64,000 nt of DNA from Verrucomicrobiota bacterium. Lineage in GTDB: Bacteria > Verrucomicrobiota > Verrucomicrobiia > Palsa-1439. This document shows, piece by piece, positions 5,205-36,479 of the stretch; the stretch's first letter is position 1; every line of letters starts with the position of its first letter. The notes under the pieces were generated by a model, which saw only the letters and a program-made list of their open reading frames with translations, did no database searches and was not told the origin of the DNA. The stretch covers positions 1 to 64,000 of the forward strand of contig PLZV01000027.1 of the NCBI GenBank assembly GCA_003152315.1, read 5' to 3'. The position numbers and the translations under genes are program-made.

Positions 5205-6518
5205 ATGAGCAAACGCAGGGTTGTTATTACGGGGATGAGTGTTTTTACCCCGGTCGGGATTGGTCTCGAGACGTTTTGGGCCAATATCCTTGCCGGTAAA
5301 TCAGGCGTGGAGCGCTCTCCCGTTCTGATGAAAGCCCACTGCCCTTGGCAGGTCGCTGGCGAAGTTCGTGATTTCCGTCCCGAGGATTGGATCAGTCGCA
5401 AGGACGTGCGGCGGATGGATCGCTTTGCGCAACTGGGGCTCGCTGCATCCTACATGGCTTTGCAGGACTCCGGGCTGGTGTTGGAAAAGGAGAATCGCGA
5501 GCGCATTGGCGTCGCAATGGGCACCGCCTATGCGGGCTGGGAGTTTGCCGCGCGCGAGTACGAGGTTTACCAGAAAAACGGGGTGGAAGCGTTAAGTTCC
5601 TACATGGGCATCGCGATCTTCACCGGGGCCTGCGGCGGCCAAATCTCGCTGCATTTGGGACTTCAAGGACAGAGCACCACCACCGCCACGGGGTGCGATT
5701 GCTCCAGCGCGACCATTGCGCAGTCCGCGGACCTGATTATTCGCGGCGATGCCGATGTGATGTTTGCCGGCGGAGCGGACGCGCCCATTCATCCTGTCAT
5801 CGTGGCCGCATTGGGTGCCAGCCGGGCGCTTACCGACCGGAACGACGAGCCCGCGCACGCCTCACGTCCATTCGACCGGAAGCGTGACGGGTTTGTCATG
5901 TCCGAGGGCGCTGGCGTGTTGGTCGTGGAAGAACTCCAGCACGCCTTGCAGCGCAAGGCGCGGATTTACGCGGAGTTGACCGGTTGGGCGTCCACCTGCG
6001 ACGCCTATCACATGTGCCAGCCGGATCCGGATGGCACACAAGCCGTGCGTTGTCTCCGAATCGCCCTCGCCCGGTCGGGTCTCCGTCCGGAGCAAGTGGA
6101 TTACCTCAATGCGCACGGCACTTCGACACCGTTGGGCGACCGCGCAGAAACGACGGTCGTCAAGAAGGCTTTTGGCGAGCACGCGTACAATCTGCCCATG
6201 AGTTCGCTCAAGGCGGCGCTCGGACACATGCAGGGCGCGTGCGGCTCGGTCGAGTTGGCAGCCTGCTGCCTCGCCATGCGCGACAACATTATTCCACCGA
6301 CGATCAATTATGAATTTCCCGATCCCGAATGCGATCTGGATTGCGTTCCCAATGTAGCCCGTCACCGCCGCGTCAACGTCGCGGTGAGCAACTCCCTGGG
6401 CTTCGGCGGTCGCAACACCGCCCTTGTTGTCGAGCGCTATCGGGACGGGCACGTCAGTGAATCGAGCGGTGCGAACGGAAAACCGGCGACACATGAAAAC
6501 GGCTTTGCTGCTGACTAA
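5205..6518 (+). CDS. beta-ketoacyl-ACP synthase (FabF/KAS II type)
   Basis: A 437-residue ketosynthase, full length for FabF. It condenses an acyl thioester with malonyl-ACP. The thiolase-fold active site is complete: Cys164 in TATGCDCSS, His in NAHGTSTPLGD and His in ALGHMQGACGS, with Lys in SLKAAL just before. The nucleophile context (Gly-Cys-Asp-Cys) differs from the usual Ala-Cys-Ser/Thr-Gly, and no fabD, fabG or acpP lies nearby. This suggests a dedicated synthase for a special lipid rather than the main fatty-acid enzyme. It sits between two histidine kinases, and its last 26 bases overlap the next gene. The C-terminal tail of about 20 residues is unlike the family and probably unstructured. 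Confidence 0.9.
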   Translation: MSKRRVVITGMSVFTPVGIGLETFWANILAGKSGVERSPVLMKAHCPWQVAGEVRDFRPEDWISRKDVRRMDRFAQLGLAASYMALQDSGLVLEKENRERIGVAMGTAYAGWEFAAREYEVYQKNGVEALSSYMGIAIFTGACGGQISLHLGLQGQSTTTATGCDCSSATIAQSADLIIRGDADVMFAGGADAPIHPVIVAALGASRALTDRNDEPAHASRPFDRKRDGFVMSEGAGVLVVEELQHALQRKARIYAELTGWASTCDAYHMCQPDPDGTQAVRCLRIALARSGLRPEQVDYLNAHGTSTPLGDRAETTVVKKAFGEHAYNLPMSSLKAALGHMQGACGSVELAACCLAMRDNIIPPTINYEFPDPECDLDCVPNVARHRRVNVAVSNSLGFGGRNTALVVERYRDGHVSESSGANGKPATHENGFAAD

Positions 6519-8820
6519 TTCAGCCGAGACACAACGGCTGCTGACCGACATTCTTGGCGAGAAAACGAACATCGTTTTGCTCCCCCCGCCGACCGAACCG
6601 TCGCAGGAACAATTCGACTCGCTCTTCTCGACCTGGCTGCGTCTTGTGGACGCGGTCATCCTGGACGCCGTCTCCCTGGGTGAAACGACCCGTTGGGCGG
6701 TCGATTCCCTTGCGGCGTCAACTCTCCAGGAACACCAGGCGGTCATCGTTCGCGTCACGGACGCGCAACGTATGGCGAGTTCCATGCCGTCGGGCTGGTT
6801 GATCGTTTCTGATGGCGATTCCGCTGACCGTTTGAAGCAGGCTCTGGGTACGTTTTTTGAATTGCGTGATGCACAATCCAAACTGAAGCGGGTCGATGCC
6901 GTGATGGCGCGTCAACGACAGGTGGCCACGCCGATGGTGACAGTGGTCCCGCAGTCCCGGTCTGTAGTGCCGCCAGCCACCGTTCCGTCTTTCGATGCCT
7001 ATCGGTACCGCGACGCTCTGAAGGATCTCTCGCGGATTCTCAGCCAATACGTGGACGAAGGCGAACTGCTCGCGGAGTTCCTGCGGCTGGTGCGCGAGTT
7101 GCTCGGCGTCGGCAAAGTGGCGATCTTCACGCGACAATTGCCCGGCGAACTGTTTCCTGGCCAATCAACCCCAGGGAGCAGGCAATTCGCGGCCACTCGC
7201 AGTGCCGGTATCGCGCAGCACGTTGTCGAACACTTGCGTTTGAGCGTTGATTCGGGCATTGGCGGTTACCTGGCGCGGGAAGCCAGGATTCTCCGGCGGA
7301 ACCAGGTGCTGGATTCGTTGGCGTTTGACTATGACCCCGAGATCGCCCGGGAGTTTGAAGTGTTGGGCACCGAGGTGGCCGTGCCGATCTTCGATGATGA
7401 CCAATTGTTGGGCGTTTTGACGTTCAGCGGCAAGATCACGGGCGAGCCCCTGGCCAGCGAGGAATTGGAGCTGGTTTACTATTTGATGGCGCAGCTTGCG
7501 CAGGCGGTCCGCAACCTGCATTTACGCGACCGGGTTGCCGGTCAGCAACGGTTCGTTAACGAAGTGTTGGCGCACGTACAGACCGGCGTGGTGGTTGTTG
7601 GCCAAAACAGCCGCATCCTCGCGGTCAACCGCCGCGCCAGCGAATTGCTTGAATTGGGCGGCAAAGTAATCGTCGGCCAGGACAGCCGGCTCTTGCCGAG
7701 TCGTGTGGCCGACGTGGTATTCGAGGCGCTGCAGACAGGCCGCGAGATTCACCAGCGAGAGGTGGTATTGCCACCGGGACATCGCCCGCTCGGTGTCAGC
7801 GCGACGCGTTTTGCAATGACGGCGGGCAGCGTGGCGACGGGAGAGGGCAGTTGGATCGCGGTGGCGCTGATTGAGGACCTCACGCAGATTCGGTTGCAGC
7901 AAGCACGCACCCGCGAGTTGGCCGATAAGGAGTTTTTTACGCGCCTGGCGGCGCGTCTGTCGCACGAACTGAAGAATTCGTTGGTGTCGATCAAGATTTT
8001 TGCGCAACTGCTGCCAGAGCGACACGATGACAAGGAGTTTCGTGAGCAGTTCAGCACGACGGTCGCCAATGAAGTGAACCGGGTGGACGTGTTGGTCAAT
8101 AATCTGACGTTCTTCGCCCATCCGCTGCTGTTGGTGTGTGAGGAACTCGTGCTCAGCGACGTCATTGACACCTGCGTCAAGAACGTCACGCAGGAATTCG
8201 GTCGCAAGCAGGTAGCGCACGTCATCGGCGTCGGTGAGAAGGCTCCCGAACCGCCCCAGGCGCCTGTGGTGACCGTGAAGAAGAATTTTGCGCACAAGTT
8301 TGCGCGGCTCGAAGGCGACCGTATCCGCCTGTTGCAGGCGTTCGAGCACGTACTGCGCAACGCGGTGCAGTCCATGCCGCAGGGCGGTCGATTGACCATC
8401 AGTACGAGTGACGCGCAGCAAACGGACTTTCCTGACGGCAATTTGCCGGCGGGAGGCGGCGTGCGCCTGGAATGGCAGGACACCGGCGGCGGGATCGCCC
8501 TGGAAGACTTGAAGCGCGTGACGGAACCGTTCGTGACCACGCGCAACGTCGGCGTGGGGTTGGGGCTGACGATTGTAAAAAAGATCGTCGAACGGCACGG
8601 TGGACGTCTGGAGATCGATAGCTTACTGGGCCGCGGGACGACGATTACGATGGTACTGCCGCTCAAGTCGCAGCCGCATCCTGACGATGATTTGTTGCGG
8701 GAGAATGTGAAGACGGTAGCAGCTTCCCCTCCGGCGGGCGCGGAGGATGCCGCCGTGGTGCGCAACCGCATTGCCGAGCGTTGGGGTGCGGACGCAGGCC
8801 GACAACCGGACCAGTCGTAA
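6493..8820 (+). CDS. soluble sensor histidine kinase (GAF-PAS-HisKA-HATPase)
   Basis: A 775-residue kinase without membrane helices. Residues 1-130 look like a degenerate receiver or Rossmann-like domain (ALLLTNS, DAVILDA, IVRVTD, LIVSDGD). A GAF domain follows (about 170-340), then a PAS domain (about 345-460, FVNEVLAHVQTGVVVV onward), HisKA with His491 in ARLSHELKNSLVS, and an ATPase domain with LRNAVQ, WQDTGGGI, EPFVTTR and GVGLGLTI. I take the ATG at 6493; the longer frame from 6424 only re-reads fabF sequence. The gene overlaps fabF and is 84 bases before the sigma-54 regulator, so it is the strongest candidate for that regulator's kinase. Its kinase core resembles that of the membrane kinase at 2927. 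Confidence 0.9.
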   Translation: MKTALLLTNSAETQRLLTDILGEKTNIVLLPPPTEPSQEQFDSLFSTWLRLVDAVILDAVSLGETTRWAVDSLAASTLQEHQAVIVRVTDAQRMASSMPSGWLIVSDGDSADRLKQALGTFFELRDAQSKLKRVDAVMARQRQVATPMVTVVPQSRSVVPPATVPSFDAYRYRDALKDLSRILSQYVDEGELLAEFLRLVRELLGVGKVAIFTRQLPGELFPGQSTPGSRQFAATRSAGIAQHVVEHLRLSVDSGIGGYLAREARILRRNQVLDSLAFDYDPEIAREFEVLGTEVAVPIFDDDQLLGVLTFSGKITGEPLASEELELVYYLMAQLAQAVRNLHLRDRVAGQQRFVNEVLAHVQTGVVVVGQNSRILAVNRRASELLELGGKVIVGQDSRLLPSRVADVVFEALQTGREIHQREVVLPPGHRPLGVSATRFAMTAGSVATGEGSWIAVALIEDLTQIRLQQARTRELADKEFFTRLAARLSHELKNSLVSIKIFAQLLPERHDDKEFREQFSTTVANEVNRVDVLVNNLTFFAHPLLLVCEELVLSDVIDTCVKNVTQEFGRKQVAHVIGVGEKAPEPPQAPVVTVKKNFAHKFARLEGDRIRLLQAFEHVLRNAVQSMPQGGRLTISTSDAQQTDFPDGNLPAGGGVRLEWQDTGGGIALEDLKRVTEPFVTTRNVGVGLGLTIVKKIVERHGGRLEIDSLLGRGTTITMVLPLKSQPHPDDDLLRENVKTVAASPPAGAEDAAVVRNRIAERWGADAGRQPDQS

Positions 8821-29251: not shown

Positions 29252-30042
29252 AGCGACAGCGTGGCGGTCGGTTTGTTCTGGCTGGTGACGGCAACCTTGA
29301 TGTGACGGGCGCCGATTTTCTGGAGTTGATTACCGACTGTCTGCAGCGCGAGTTCGGGGCGGTTGCAATCCTGGCTGAGGTGCGCGAGAAAGACGTGGCG
29401 AAGTTTGTCGGAGGCGACTTCGCTGGTGAGCGTGGCGGCGGCGTCATTGCTGAGATGGCCGTGGCGGGACATGATGCGCTGTTTCAGGGCCCACGGGCGA
29501 ACGGCGTCTTCTTGCAGCAGTTTCAAATCGTGGTTTGATTCCACGACCAGTACGTCCATGGAGCGCATGCGTTCGGTCACGAGCTTCGTCGCATGGCCCA
29601 GGTCGGTGAGCACTCCCACGGCGATGCCGGAATTGGGATGGCGGATGACGTAGCCGACCGGGTCGTAGGCGTCGTGCGGGACGCTGAAGGATTCGACCAG
29701 TAGGTCGCCCACCTCGAAGGAGCCGCCCGTGGAAAACAGCCGCCACGAGATGCGGACGCGGTCCTGCCATTCGGGGTCGGTGGAAATGGCTTCGGCGGTG
29801 AGGCGATTGGCGTAGACGGGAAGGGCGCGCGTTTTGCAGAGCACGCCGAGGCCGCGGGTATGGTCGCTGTGTTCGTGGGTGAGGATTACTCCCGTGATTT
29901 CTTCGAGGTTGCGACTGATCAGGGCGAGGCGTTGTGAGATCTGGCGACCACTCAGACCGGCATCGACGAGAAGTTTCGTCGTGTCGGTCTCAATCAAGGT
30001 GCAATTGCCGGCGCTCCCGCTCCCCAAAATCGTGATTCGCAT
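29248..30042 (-). CDS. metallo-beta-lactamase-fold hydrolase (WalJ/YycJ-like)
   Basis: A 264-residue metallo-hydrolase. It starts MRITILGSGSAGNCTLIET, as WalJ/YycJ proteins do, and has the metal motif THEHSDHTRG, then TDLGHATK, VESNHDLKLLQ and RHGHLSNDAAA. WalJ proteins act as 5'-3' exonuclease-like or double-strand-break-related enzymes in some bacteria, and the family is widely conserved. I begin at the ATG at 30042; a GTG two codons upstream is possible. A copy of its first 15 codons and 50 bases of upstream DNA lies at 32453-32549. Confidence 0.9.
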   Translation of the reverse strand: MRITILGSGSAGNCTLIETDTTKLLVDAGLSGRQISQRLALISRNLEEITGVILTHEHSDHTRGLGVLCKTRALPVYANRLTAEAISTDPEWQDRVRISWRLFSTGGSFEVGDLLVESFSVPHDAYDPVGYVIRHPNSGIAVGVLTDLGHATKLVTERMRSMDVLVVESNHDLKLLQEDAVRPWALKQRIMSRHGHLSNDAAATLTSEVASDKLRHVFLAHLSQDCNRPELALQTVGNQLQKIGARHIKVAVTSQNKPTATLSL

Positions 30043-30186
30043 CCCCACGCGGGGGATTTTACACGGAGTGGGGAGGGACGCAAGATTTCTGAGAGGGGAA
30101 GACGGTTTTCAGCGGCGGGACTGGCCTGAGTTGGACAGTACCCAACAACAGAAAGAAGAGGTGTGACCCCTGTTCGCGTTCATTTA

Positions 30187-31049: not shown

Positions 31050-32429
31050 ATGGCTTCGCGAGTTCTCTTGATCAGCCAGAATCGGTGCGACCAGCCTTAC
31101 CCGGTCTATCCGTTGGGGCTGGCGCATCTTGATGCGGCGCTGCACCGGGCGGGACACACGACGCGCGTGCACGATTGCCGGGTCACGCGCGAGCCGGTGG
31201 AGGACATTCTTGCCGAATTTCGGCCGGACGTGGTGGGGATATCCCTGCGCAACATTGATGACATTCAGTTCGTGAGCCGGCAGACTTATTTCGGTGACGC
31301 CATCGCGCTTTGTCGGACGATTCGCAGCAGGTGCTCGTGCCCGGTTGTTCTTGGCGGCTCGGCGTTTTCCATTTTTCCCGAACCGCTGCTGCGGTTGACG
31401 GAGGCGGACTACGGCATCCACGGTGCCGGCGAGGTTGCATTCGAACGACTCATCAACGCCTTAGCTGCGGGCGCCGATCCGAGTGCCATCCCGGGGCTGG
31501 TTCACCATCGCGGCGAGAAGATTGTTATCAACCCGCGCGTTCCCGTTGAAGCGGCGTCGCTGGGGCCTGCCGAACGGCAACCGGACCTCGTGGAGTATTA
31601 CTTGAAACGCAGTTCCATGCTGAACATCTCGACGCAACGCGGTTGCGGTCTGCCCTGCTGTTTCTGCACCTATCCGCTGATCGAAGGCCGCGAGAATCGG
31701 CGGCGCGATCCCGAAGCGGTTGCCGATGAACTGGCGGGCCTCCAGCAACAAGGGGCCAAACACGTCTTCGTCACCGATGCCGTTTTCAATCTCACCAACG
31801 AGCATGTGGCGGGGGTCTGCGAAGCCATTTTGCGGCGCGGCATCCGGTTGACGTGGACCTGCTTCCTGCGACCGAAGAATCTCACTCGGGAACTGATGGA
31901 GTTGATGGCGAAGGCGGGGCTGACACACATCGAATTCGGCGCGGACAGTTTCTGCGACGAGGTGCTCGCTGAATACGGCAAGACATTCAGCTTTGCTGAC
32001 GTCGTCCAGTCCACCCAACTGGCTCGCGCGGCGCGGGTTCATTGCAGCCATTTCGTCATCTGCGGCGGGCCGGGAGAGACGCTGTCGACCCTGCAAGCCG
32101 GTTTCGAGAACGCGCAACACCTGACCGGCGCGGTCGTGTTTGCGTTGGCGGGGATGCGCATTTATCCCGGTACGCCGCTGTTCTCCCGCGCCCAGCGGGA
32201 AGGGGTTCTATCCGCGGATAGCGACCTGCTCGATCCCGTCTATTACGTTTCGCCCGCGCTGACCGGGGCGCAGGTCCTGGAGCAACTGGCTGAGTTTGGC
32301 CGGCGCGCTTCCCACTGGATCGTCGGCCCACTGCTACCACGTTTTGCCGCGATCGCCGACCAACTTCGCCAACGAGGGGTGGTCGGGCCGCTGTGGGAAT
32401 ACTACGGAGCGCTTCGGCGGATGAGTTGA
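31050..32429 (+). CDS. B12-binding/radical SAM protein
   Basis: A 459-residue protein. The first 130 residues are a B12-binding-like Rossmann fold (VLLISQNRC, YPLGLAHLDAALHRAGH, EFRPDVVGISLRNIDD), though I do not see the DxHxxG motif of base-off cobalamin binding. The radical SAM domain has the Cys motif CGLPCCFC (CxxxCxxC, about residues 198-205), HVFVTDAVFNLT and THIEFGADSFCDEVL. Such proteins modify lipids, tetrapyrroles or natural products; the overall build resembles radical SAM proteins of lipid clusters. I begin at the ATG at 31050. No neighbour gives the substrate. Confidence 0.8.
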   Translation: MASRVLLISQNRCDQPYPVYPLGLAHLDAALHRAGHTTRVHDCRVTREPVEDILAEFRPDVVGISLRNIDDIQFVSRQTYFGDAIALCRTIRSRCSCPVVLGGSAFSIFPEPLLRLTEADYGIHGAGEVAFERLINALAAGADPSAIPGLVHHRGEKIVINPRVPVEAASLGPAERQPDLVEYYLKRSSMLNISTQRGCGLPCCFCTYPLIEGRENRRRDPEAVADELAGLQQQGAKHVFVTDAVFNLTNEHVAGVCEAILRRGIRLTWTCFLRPKNLTRELMELMAKAGLTHIEFGADSFCDEVLAEYGKTFSFADVVQSTQLARAARVHCSHFVICGGPGETLSTLQAGFENAQHLTGAVVFALAGMRIYPGTPLFSRAQREGVLSADSDLLDPVYYVSPALTGAQVLEQLAEFGRRASHWIVGPLLPRFAAIADQLRQRGVVGPLWEYYGALRRMS

Positions 32430-32452: not shown

Positions 32453-32549
32453 CTGTTGCCGGCGTTACCGCTGCCCAAAATCGTGATGTGCATCCCCATG
32501 CGAGAGATTCTACACCGAGCGGGAATTGACCCAAGCTTTCTGCGAGGGG
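32453..32549 (-). pseudogene. stray copy of the 5' end of the WalJ-type gene
   Basis: These 97 bases align without gaps to 30002-30098 with 78 identities. They read, on the minus strand, MHITILGSGNAGNS, against MRITILGSGSAGNC in the intact gene, plus about 50 bases of the region upstream of its start. Similarity ends after about 15 codons. It is a dead fragment, not a gene. Confidence 0.8.
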
Positions 32550-32642: not shown

Positions 32643-33431
32643 TCAAGTCTCTTCGCCGTCCGCATCTGTTTCGGTGTCATCCAAAACCGAAAACCTCAAC
32701 GAATCCAGTTTCAATTGGCGATCAGCCAAGCCTTTTTGGCGCTCAACCCACCTTGCTTTCTCTTGCGGGTTATTTTCAATTTCAAGGCTTTCTTTATATT
32801 GCGTGGCAACAGCTTTGTCCGTCCACAATTTGACGGTGAAGTCTTCACCTTGCTTTAGTTTCTCAACCTCTTGTTGAATGTCCGTTAGGGTCACACGGAA
32901 GAACTCCTTGCGAGTATTCATTTTGTTGACTTGCATCGCCAGAAACAGTCTGTGAAGTTTGTGCTCAAGCACAGGGGCATTCTCACTCTCAATCAGCGCA
33001 TGAACATCAAACTCGAACGGCACACTTGCATTACCAAGTTCATCAACACGTTCCTGCGGGTCGGGCCGCCGTGTTTGCCCAATTTTGTAAACGCCCGGAC
33101 CGAAAGCGCCGATGTTGGAGAGGATGTAAACGTGTCCCTTCTTCGTCTGCTGCGCAATTGTAAGTTTCTTTTGCGCGGCGTCATCTCGCTCTTGGCGTAG
33201 TCTCTGCACTTCCTGCTCCCACCGCGCTTTCTCTTCAGCATGCGCTTGGGCAAGTCTCTTTTCTGCTTCCTCCAGCGCCGTTCTTTTCAGTTCCTCCTCC
33301 TTTATCGCTTCGCGCATTTTCTGCTCATACTCCTTCCTTGCTTTCTCTTCGTCACGAAGCCGTTCCTTTAGATAGCGCTGTTCTTCCCGTTGCTTGAGGG
33401 CCAACTCGTGCACGACGACAGCCCACTTCAA
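32643..33431 (-). pseudogene. C-terminal half of a split DUF4041/GIY-YIG (T5orf172) protein
   Basis: The reading frame runs on the minus strand. It begins in the middle of a protein: ARILPAYLDTRLAELKWAVVVHELALKQREEQ can be read from about 33476, before any plausible start (33431 is a TTG). A long charged coiled coil (about 80 residues) follows. Next is the GIY-YIG/T5orf172 domain with GHVYILSNIGAFGPGVYKIGQTRR, VPFEFDVHAL and VNKMNTRKEFFRV. The missing N-terminal part of the same family is at 34841-35842 on the other strand. Above 33476 the frame reads only repeat DNA (hairpin at 33501-33517). The intact protein would be a phage- or defence-type nuclease-like protein. Confidence 0.8.
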
Positions 33432-33500
33432 TTCAGCCAGCCTCGTATCGAGGTAGGCTGGGAGAATACGCGCGTTGCCACCCCCCGCCTCCCTCGTAGA

Positions 33501-33517
33501 ACGGGCGTCCCGCCCGT
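33501..33517. repeat. short palindromic repeat at the GIY-YIG breakpoint
   Basis: Arms ACGGGCG and CGCCCGT with loop TCC. It lies about 25 bases beyond the point where homology of the split protein stops. The gap 33477-33737 otherwise holds only an AG-rich stretch (ACAGAAAGAAGAG at 33564) that also occurs near 30150. Confidence 0.65.
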
Positions 33518-33737
33518 TTGCCTCTGCCCCTTTCCGAGCGGGCGCCTACATCGGAAGCCACTTACAGAAAGAAGAGATGCGGCTCCGTATATTTATTCGA
33601 AGCGGTAGCGGACGACGGCTTCTGGGATAACCAAGACGCAAATACCTTGTCGGTATGGGTCACTGACTGTATTCTAATTTCCCAATTCTAATGACGCCAT
33701 TGGGGCCCTGAACGTTGCGCAAGAAGTTATTACTAGA

Positions 33738-34844
33738 ATGGGGTGGAAAGGAACACTTCGTGCAATGGAAGCTGCTGAGCGACGACAGCAGCGTGACGCT
33801 CAGCGCCGCCTTCGTGAATTGGCCCGTCAATTCAAGGACCGTGCCAAGCTCTCGGCAATCGAACAAGCTCACCTAGAGGTTGCGACTTACGAGAATCAAC
33901 TAGAAGTGCTTTTGTCGGTTCACAAGGAGCAAGGCCAAACTTGGGACTGGGCAGCGCTCGCGGCTTCGCTACCTCCTCCTATTCCACAGCGGAATTCGCA
34001 TCATGAATATCGTGCGAAACATCAAATGACGGTTGCACTTCCATCGCAGAAGGAAGGTTTGGAGGCAACGGTTGAGCAGGCTCGGTTGCAGGACGAGCAG
34101 GCATTTCAGGAAGCAACGCAAAGTTATTTAAAAGAGCGGGCCGAATGGGAGCGGATGAATGGTTTATCGCAGCGCATTCTTGCTGGAGATCACACGGCAT
34201 ACATCGAAGCTTTATCAGAATTCAGCCCTTTCGGTGAGATTTCAGAGCTTGGCTCCTCACTTCACTTCACAGTTCACAACGCAAAGCTGATCGAGTGCGA
34301 ACTGAAGGCGAACGGCAAGCAGGTTATTCCGTCGGAGGCAAAAACTCTGACGGCCAGTGGAAAAGTTTCCATCAAGCCGATGCCGAAGGGACGCTTTCAC
34401 GAGATTTATCAAGACTATCTAAGCGCGTGCGTGCTTCGTGTAGCACGTGAGGTGTTTGCCTTGCTACCGGTGGAAACCTTGTTGATTACAGCGTTCGCGG
34501 ATGTGTTCGATCCTCGCACGGGTCAGACGGGAGAGCAGTCAGTGTTATCCGTAATTGTACCACGCGCGGTTATTGCTCGACTTGATTTTGAGAAGCTGGA
34601 TCCGTCTGAAGCGGTGGAAAACTTTATACATCGTAGCAACTTCAAGGCGTCTCGGAAATCGGAGTTATTTCAAGCCATCATACCACTGACGCCTGCAGAT
34701 ACTGTGCGGACTGCAATTGAGGATATGGGCTTTCGCGATCTCCTTGATAGTGTCCAGAAGATGCGCGAGGACATAGCGTCAAAAATTGCTGGATTGAATC
34801 CGCATCTAAGTGTGCCTAGCCTGCAAAACAGTCCATCGTCATGA
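33738..34844 (+). CDS. uncharacterised protein paired with the DUF4041 gene
   Basis: A 368-residue soluble protein. The N-terminus MGWKGTLRAMEAAERRQQRDAQRRLRELARQ is a basic helix with a conserved look, followed by LEVATYENQLEVLLSVHKEQGQTWDWAALAASLPPP. I recall proteins with this beginning as conserved hypotheticals of many bacteria. A long helical middle is followed by a compact C-terminal domain (SVIVPRAVIARLDFEKLDPSEAVENFIHRSNFK). The gene overlaps the DUF4041 half by ATGA, so the two were an operon. The AT-richer base composition differs from the housekeeping genes around it, suggesting transfer on a phage or genomic island. Function unknown. Confidence 0.7.
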   Translation: MGWKGTLRAMEAAERRQQRDAQRRLRELARQFKDRAKLSAIEQAHLEVATYENQLEVLLSVHKEQGQTWDWAALAASLPPPIPQRNSHHEYRAKHQMTVALPSQKEGLEATVEQARLQDEQAFQEATQSYLKERAEWERMNGLSQRILAGDHTAYIEALSEFSPFGEISELGSSLHFTVHNAKLIECELKANGKQVIPSEAKTLTASGKVSIKPMPKGRFHEIYQDYLSACVLRVAREVFALLPVETLLITAFADVFDPRTGQTGEQSVLSVIVPRAVIARLDFEKLDPSEAVENFIHRSNFKASRKSELFQAIIPLTPADTVRTAIEDMGFRDLLDSVQKMREDIASKIAGLNPHLSVPSLQNSPSS

Positions 34845-35881
34845 TCGCATTCTTTGTAATTCTTGCCTTCATTCTTTTTGGTCTATTTATGGCTGCGTTC
34901 TTCAAGAGCAGGCAGCTTGAGGCCCTTGTTGCTCAGCGGGACGGAGAAGTAGCTGCTGCAAAGCAAGAGTCCGAAAGTGCACGTCAGCGGTACGAATCTG
35001 AAACACAGCGTACGTACGGCGAAGCGCAAGCGGCTGTCGCCGATGCTCAAAGGCAGATCGATCAACAACTTTCTGAAATGAAGCAAGAATCGGAGCGCAT
35101 TCGACAGCATTATGAGACGGAAGCGCGCAGAATCCAGGATACGGCTGACGCCCTTGTTTCCAAGACCACAAAGGAGTTTGAACCGCTTAAGAAATATGAG
35201 GGACTTCGGGATGCCGAAGCTGAAGTGCAACGTCAGCTTGCCGCCGCAATGAAAGAAGCGAACGGTTTGCTTGCGGAGGCGCATGCTTTGCTGGAACAAT
35301 CCCGTAGCGTAGCTGCCGACGAGCGAGCGCGGGCAATCCAAAGAGCTAAAGAAATCCGCGAACAGGCCGACGCCTTACTCAATCAAGCAACGCTTGACGC
35401 TGGGCGTATTTTCAAAGAAGCCAACAAACGCGCGGAGCAAATCGCAGGTGATGCCTATACTGCTCTTCGTGACAAGCAACTGTTGGAACGAGCCGCCGAA
35501 GCCATGCGCAATGTCATTGACGGGTATGGAGATCGTTACATTATTCCAACACGCAGTCTGCTCGATGAACTTGCCATAGAATTTGGTTACACCGCCGCAG
35601 GTGAAGCGCTCAAGTCCGCGCGCGACCTATCAAGACGCATGGTTGAGCAAGGTGAGGCGGCGACTTGTGATTACGTCGAAGCCAACCGGCGAGAGACCGC
35701 CATACAGTTTGTGATTGTTGCTTTTAACGGTCGAGTGGATGCAATTCTCTCTAGATCAAAACACGACAATTATGGAACACTTGAACGGGAAATACGGGAC
35801 GCTTACAGCCTGGTGAACTTGAACGGCAGCGCCTTTAGAAAAGTGGTGAGACGGCCTGCTGAGAGACCTTCGGTCGGTTAA
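34841..35881 (+). pseudogene. N-terminal half of a split DUF4041/GIY-YIG protein
   Basis: A 346-residue open frame. It has one N-terminal membrane helix (MIAFFVILAFILFGLFMAAFF), a coiled coil of about 180 residues, and the DUF4041 core near the end: YIIPTRSLLDELAIEFGYTAAGEALKSARD, AATCDYVEANRRETAIQFVIVAFNGRVDAILSR, KHDNYGTLEREIRDAYSLVNLNGSAFRK. Homology stops at about 35842. The last residues, VVRRPAERPSVG, are encoded by a type C palindromic repeat (35861-35877). In intact relatives the sequence would continue into the part now found at 33476-32643 in the opposite direction. So this is the front half of a gene broken by an inversion; whether a shortened protein is made is unknown. Confidence 0.8.
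35861..35877 (+). repeat. type C repeat at the DUF4041 breakpoint
   Basis: GAGAGACCTTCGGTCGG, a near copy of the units at 25674 and 36383. It supplies the stop region of the truncated frame. Confidence 0.7.
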
Positions 35882-36083
35882 GCAGCGAGCGAGAATGTGG
35901 TTTGACATCGTATTCCGATAGTGGTAAGGTCTTCAATATGCTATTGGCAAAAGGATCCGCCATTAGTCGCAGTGACTACTTCACTCGGCAAACTTATGGC
36001 GGACAAAATGGAACCAGTGTGCCGCTGTACGTGCGAAAATGCTACTAAAGCAAAGCCTTGGGTGGCCGATATACGTTTCTGCG

Positions 36084-36201
36084 AAACGAACCCACCGTTT
36101 TCGACGGCAAAAACAAGGGTTAAGTGATTGTGAGGCAAATAGAAGTGACAGAAATGTTAGCCGATTTTCGGTGGGTTCGTTTTGGGAAAACGAACCCACC
36201 G
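36084..36201. repeat. AACGAACCCACC repeats with a long perfect hairpin
   Basis: AAACGAACCCACCG at 36084-36097 recurs at 36187-36201 and, reversed, at 36169-36183. The latter two form a perfect 15-bp hairpin (CGGTGGGTTCGTTTT, loop GGG, AAAACGAACCCACCG), followed by GAGGGCTG and six T, so it may end transcripts. Open frames here (36039-36521 and 36124-36564) read repeat DNA and are not genes. The gap 35882-36590 therefore holds repeats only, plus the rpoN leader. Confidence 0.7.
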
Positions 36202-36355
36202 GAGGGCTGTTTTTTCTGGTTTTTTGGTGGATTTGTACCGTTTCTGAATGTTCTTGCAATTCTATGGGATTGGAAATGCTACGAGGCGGCGCGCCTTCGT
36301 TTGACTCGATTCGACAGGCTCAGTTTTGGGACACGACCGGTCGAAACCATCGGAC

Positions 36356-36479
36356 GCCGCGTGAGGGCACGCGGCCTACAACGGGAGACCTTCGGTCGGA
36401 CAAAATGCGCGGTCGGGAGACCGGCGCACAGCGAGAGAGGTCGGGCCCGAAACGGTGCGGGGTCGGGAGACCCGCGCAC
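36356..36479. repeat. cluster of palindromic repeats upstream of rpoN
   Basis: In order: 36356-36375 (GCCGCGTG/CACGCGGC, loop AGGG), type C at 36383-36399, type B at 36406-36430 (GCGCGGTC/GACCGGCGC) and type B at 36455-36479 (GCGGGGTC/GACCCGCGC). The two B copies differ by a compensated base pair. The last unit ends about 110 bases before the rpoN start. Confidence 0.8.

Follow-up and report, generated by a model that had tools for sequence, protein, structure and literature searches.

PD-Lambda-1, an anti-phage system first reported in PMC9519451, has recently been characterised under the name SNIPE and is described in PMC13190303 as a membrane-bound nuclease that cuts incoming phage DNA. 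According to that source, 66% of SNIPE homologues carry one or two predicted transmembrane segments, the anchor keeps the characterised protein at the membrane, and its DUF4041 domain binds DNA and, probably, the tape measure protein of the phage. The same paper reports that the nuclease is essential in the characterised protein, with an E414A mutant abolishing defence, and that SNIPE without its membrane segment is toxic unless the nuclease is inactivated. The locus analysed here lies in a 64,000-nucleotide stretch of DNA (hereafter, the window) and shares with SNIPE a hydrophobic segment, a DUF4041 domain and a C-terminal GIY-YIG domain, in the same order once an inversion is undone. It differs in being split by that inversion, in having a long coiled N-terminal region and in possessing a conserved upstream companion gene, of which the accessible part of PMC13190303 makes no mention. 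We put the probability at roughly 0.76 that a recent illegitimate inversion inactivated a horizontally acquired SNIPE operon, as a one-off event and not as an on/off switch, and we regard the case as a commonplace inactivation of an already known defence gene that came about in an unusual way.

The list of open reading frames of the window contains a plus-strand frame at 34841-35881 and a minus-strand frame at 33476-32643, which divide the domains of the family between them. The front half (34841-35841, plus strand, with its frame running on to 35881) comprises an N-terminal hydrophobic segment, represented in the sequence by MIAFFVILAFILFGLFMAAFF, a coiled coil and a DUF4041 domain (Pfam PF13250, E 1.9e-7) that matches profile positions 2-44 of 56 and is cut at position 44, the remainder being found on the tail. 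The back half (32643-33476, minus strand) supplies this end of DUF4041, a helical linker and a C-terminal T5orf172/MUG113 (GIY-YIG) nuclease (PF13455, E 4.1e-16; PF10544, E 8.7e-15). The tail matches the PADLOC PD-Lambda-1 model from model position 244 onwards (E 6.5e-79), and the front matches the preceding part of the model, weakly. Judged from these matches and the alignments described below, the two halves are one DUF4041/GIY-YIG protein of the SNIPE (PD-Lambda-1) family. A single continuous reading frame for all SNIPE domains is absent, the halves lying on opposite strands, and the break parts the putative membrane anchor, along with most of DUF4041, from the linker and nuclease; as far as its sequence tells, the window gene is a broken member of the family and not a working one.

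The earlier note had placed the end of plus-strand homology near 35842 and the start of minus-strand homology at about 33476, and had proposed that some 2.4 kb holding the companion gene and the front half had been turned round without the loss of a residue. Alignment with intact relatives refined the former position to 35841, where homology ends two bases into the codon that follows residue 333 (...NGSAFR); the residues of the front frame beyond this point, KVVRRPAERPSVG, are read-through after the break. The latter position was confirmed, tail homology beginning at N-A-R-I-L-P-A-Y-L with its first base at 33476 and running to the stop at 32643, and no plausible start codon for the back half was found at the break. 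Intact relatives read ...AFRNARILPAYL... across the joint, with FRNARILPAYL or close variants, and front residue 333 and the N of the tail are consecutive codons in them (joining FR to NARI). In the window, the front side keeps AGA-AA up to 35841 and the tail side keeps AAC-GCG-CG from 33476 onwards; no base is missing at the joint, and only the 2 bp 'AA' are present twice. Re-inverting about 33477-35841 (~2.4 kb), a segment made up of the region upstream of the companion (33477-33737), the companion gene itself and the front half, brings back the reading frame and the order of genes seen in all intact relatives and yields a minus-strand operon of upstream region, companion and SNIPE gene. By our own estimate, two independent truncations would fall within one codon of a gene of ~610 codons with a chance of about 1 in 200, so that a single event is the simple reading. 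The case shows that an apparent split DUF4041 gene and a stray GIY-YIG gene can be one broken system, which an annotation would count as two.

The proposed inversion gains further support from the arrangement of the gene in its relatives. A front-half scan of the genome contig collection returned 27 loci, and relatives of the front half match it at 53-67% over residues 1-333. Both halves were found by BLAST in 42 loci, and in all 42 they were adjacent (within 6 nt) on one strand, with none opposed. In a broader set, which overlapped the first in part and included viral loci, both halves were found in 102 loci and were adjacent in all 102, again with none opposed; two distinct loci of this set presented a front without a tail. 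No split arrangement was seen among the genome and viral loci examined, nor any inverted or split state in the phylum, in which 388 genomes were sampled and 28 matched. Relatives with the same broken arrangement, which the earlier note had named as the mark of a fixed, old break, were sought without success, and their absence indicates a private event of this genome. No second genome of this species was present in the collections searched.

The companion gene (33738-34844, plus strand, 368 aa) overlaps the start of the front half through an ATGA and was found directly upstream of every long-form SNIPE homologue examined in the Verrucomicrobiota, including nine or ten loci of the front-half scan (L009, L011-L019) as well as G311, G138 and G201. 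Its similarity is to the C-terminal portion of proteins annotated as DUF4236, with plasmid proteins among the matches, and a Fibrella plasmid (L296) has a relative of the companion on the other side of SNIPE, after that gene. A confident AlphaFold2 model of the companion (pLDDT 83) gave no significant fold match in the PDB. This conservation suggests that the companion and long-form SNIPE may possibly constitute a two-gene SNIPE variant, and the identification of a conserved companion gene in verrucomicrobial SNIPE operons is the more useful by-product of the analysis. In one of the scanned loci (L012, 4906-5998) the companion gene is frameshifted.

The nearest named relatives at the locus are Verrucomicrobia. 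In the two same-genus genomes (G001 and G002) the front gene is absent; both keep the neighbours on either side, the metallo-beta-lactamase-fold (MBL-fold) gene and rpoN, which are 78-94% identical to those of the window and have unrelated DNA, and no operon, between them. Third-position GC content is 0.48-0.55 in the three operon pieces and 0.73-0.78 in the neighbouring genes. Together, the lack of the operon in same-genus genomes and its low GC3 point to an acquired island to which both halves alike belong, and on these grounds the companion and SNIPE operon is foreign, horizontally acquired DNA. On the MBL-fold side, ~87 bp of the start region of the MBL-fold gene form a direct repeat at about 30007-30093 and 32456-32542, the second copy lying on the far side of a radical-SAM gene (31056-32429) that is absent between these flanks in the same-genus genomes.

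Hin/fim-type switches and invertible promoters rely on inverted-repeat recombination sites and a dedicated recombinase. Like them, the locus has a segment whose reversal relative to its flanks would alter expression; in contrast to them, neither feature was found here. A repeat scan of the window detected no inverted pair spanning both breakpoints, which share only 'AA', and local alignment of the inverted flanks scored 18, where shuffled sequence gave a median of 17 and a 95th percentile of 22, and so did no better than chance. The earlier note was right that repeats stand next to both ends, but its description is misleading, for they belong to unrelated families and are not inverted copies of each other. 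On the left, ~18 bp inside the breakpoint, lies a short dispersed palindrome (33494-33524, plus strand) matched at some twelve or more other places in the genome, as counted by sequence searches of the genome collection; on the right, ~20 bp outside the breakpoint, lies the 15-mer GAGACCTTCGGTCGG (35863-35877, plus strand), with a second exact copy at 36385-36399. These repeats could make the DNA fragile, yet they cannot recombine with each other. Rfam searches of the flanking repeats gave only sub-threshold miRNA matches, attributable to chance. Resolvase (PF00239) and phage integrase/tyrosine recombinase (PF00589) domains matched 6 and 17 times in the genome, in every case on contigs other than that of the window.

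The programmed or recombinase-driven switch that the earlier note had called unproven, in which the segment would flip the nuclease on and off, is accordingly disfavoured. Its appeal lies in an inversion that is reciprocal and leaves the frame intact on reversal, in two undecayed halves, in the serine and tyrosine recombinases encoded elsewhere in the genome, and in another broken homologue (L029, discussed below) that stops at nearly the same codon. Such a switch would nevertheless have to operate without an inverted repeat or a shared core beyond 2 bp and without a recombinase on this contig, with one breakpoint inside coding sequence whose conservation is explained by the protein; moreover, no inverted relative was found in the 102 loci with both halves or the 28 matching genomes of the phylum, and no E. 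coli copy broken at this codon among the matches listed (291 genomes). We therefore consider it very unlikely. We give scarcely any credence to its more elaborate form, a switch of costly immunity in which a reversible inversion would part the nuclease of a two-gene SNIPE system from its membrane anchor, driven by a trans-acting recombinase that needs only minimal sites at a conserved DUF4041 codon, where the L029 homologue breaks too. A population of mixed orientation would reveal an unrecognised way of switching immunity, and the evidence argues against it.

The main rival, though still improbable, is an assembly or library chimera, in which the gene is intact on the true chromosome and the inverted order reflects a mistake or the joining of a rare variant. 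The assembly (4.9 Mb in 62 contigs, the window being on contig C20) has an estimated contamination of 3.29%, dispersed and palindromic repeats occur within ~20 bp of each breakpoint and both half-genes are undamaged, all of which would suit such an artefact. However, with no more than 2 bp in common and no inverted repeat, the breakpoints leave a k-mer assembler nothing to misjoin on, and two independent chimeric joints, perfectly reciprocal and without lost bases, would be needed. That the frames are instead two unrelated truncated genes, a front operon and a back remnant of other origin brought into convergence by chance, might be read from their somewhat differing closest relatives (L011 and L012 for the front, L014 and L012 for the tail), but L012 is a near relative of each (66% and 70%), GC3 is similar in both halves, and front and tail divide the protein between them at one codon, without a residue skipped or repeated, leaving this reading with almost no weight. 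It is also highly doubtful that the inversion creates a selected new product, a companion plus a membrane-anchored, nuclease-free DUF4041 protein: the companion and front half do stand together behind their own upstream region, both open, but the E414A nuclease mutant abolishes defence in the characterised SNIPE, according to PMC13190303, and no conserved nuclease-free form was seen, save for two truncated copies.

Under the favoured reading of a one-off inactivating inversion, the ancestral state would have been a two-gene operon of companion and SNIPE homologue on the minus strand between the MBL-fold gene and rpoN. A single illegitimate inversion of the end-joining or template-switch type, for which we infer 0-2 bp of microhomology, would then have turned round SNIPE codons 1-333 together with the companion gene and the region upstream of it, with breakpoints at 33476/33477 and ~35841/35842. 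The presumed promoter of the operon, assigned to 33477-33737 (now plus strand) by position only, would have moved with the inversion; no strong sigma-70-like site was found in this interval. The putative anchor and most of DUF4041 would now lie on the plus strand, still behind the companion and ending in about a dozen junk residues, and the linker and GIY-YIG nuclease would have been left on the minus strand, promoterless and startless. With its nuclease half cut off from the anchor, the upstream region and a start codon, the window SNIPE is expected to have lost its anti-phage activity, since the protein requires all three parts, anchor, DUF4041 and nuclease, within a single chain (PMC13190303). 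Both halves are free of stops, whereas 5% of neutral divergence should have introduced ~4 (P(0)=0.018), suggesting that the break is recent or an artefact; we favour recency. Two observations sit less comfortably with an isolated accident: the proximity of the left breakpoint to a palindromic repeat, which might not be coincidental, and the L029 break at nearly the same codon, a weak hint of a fragile or targeted site.

Loss of a single defence gene in single strains is shared with the E. coli SNIPE types, which were found in 128 and 163 genomes (291 in total). There, among the best 60 of 128 and the best 60 of 163 matches, individual copies are truncated or carry an insertion of IS5 or ISVsa5, and a few copies among the matches listed look frameshifted through apparent small indels; the window gene, by contrast, was broken by inversion, and no inverted E. 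coli SNIPE was reported among the matches listed. L029 (Pseudomonas sp. S31, 5848-6780) is a homologue that stops at ...SFRN, followed by unrelated sequence, and no tail or nuclease half was found in its 6.4-Mb genome. Few broken copies were seen, and by our own estimate the L029 match stands at the ~1% level; it is probably a coincidence. A break hotspot at the DUF4041 codon, hinted at by L029, was considered and rejected, since L018 breaks elsewhere and no copy does so at this codon among the E. coli matches listed. In L018 (1201-1920) the SNIPE gene stops after ~230 residues, at a site different from that of the window, and housekeeping genes follow.

The right flank also carries a dispersed hairpin element, 60 bp beyond the 15-mer. 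This element (36067-36205) has a near-constant length of ~135 bp and at least 30 copies in the genome (L038-L067), gave no Rfam match above threshold, and occurs upstream of rpoN in a same-genus genome as well (L109, 12971-13111). Of the 14 pairs in its outer stem (ACGAACCCACCG / CGGTGGGTTCGT), 5 show compensatory changes. Many copies of the hairpin are preceded, at a distance of 120-540 bp, by a nearly invariant promoter-like motif, TTTGACATCGTATTCCGATAGTG (35901-35926 in the window).
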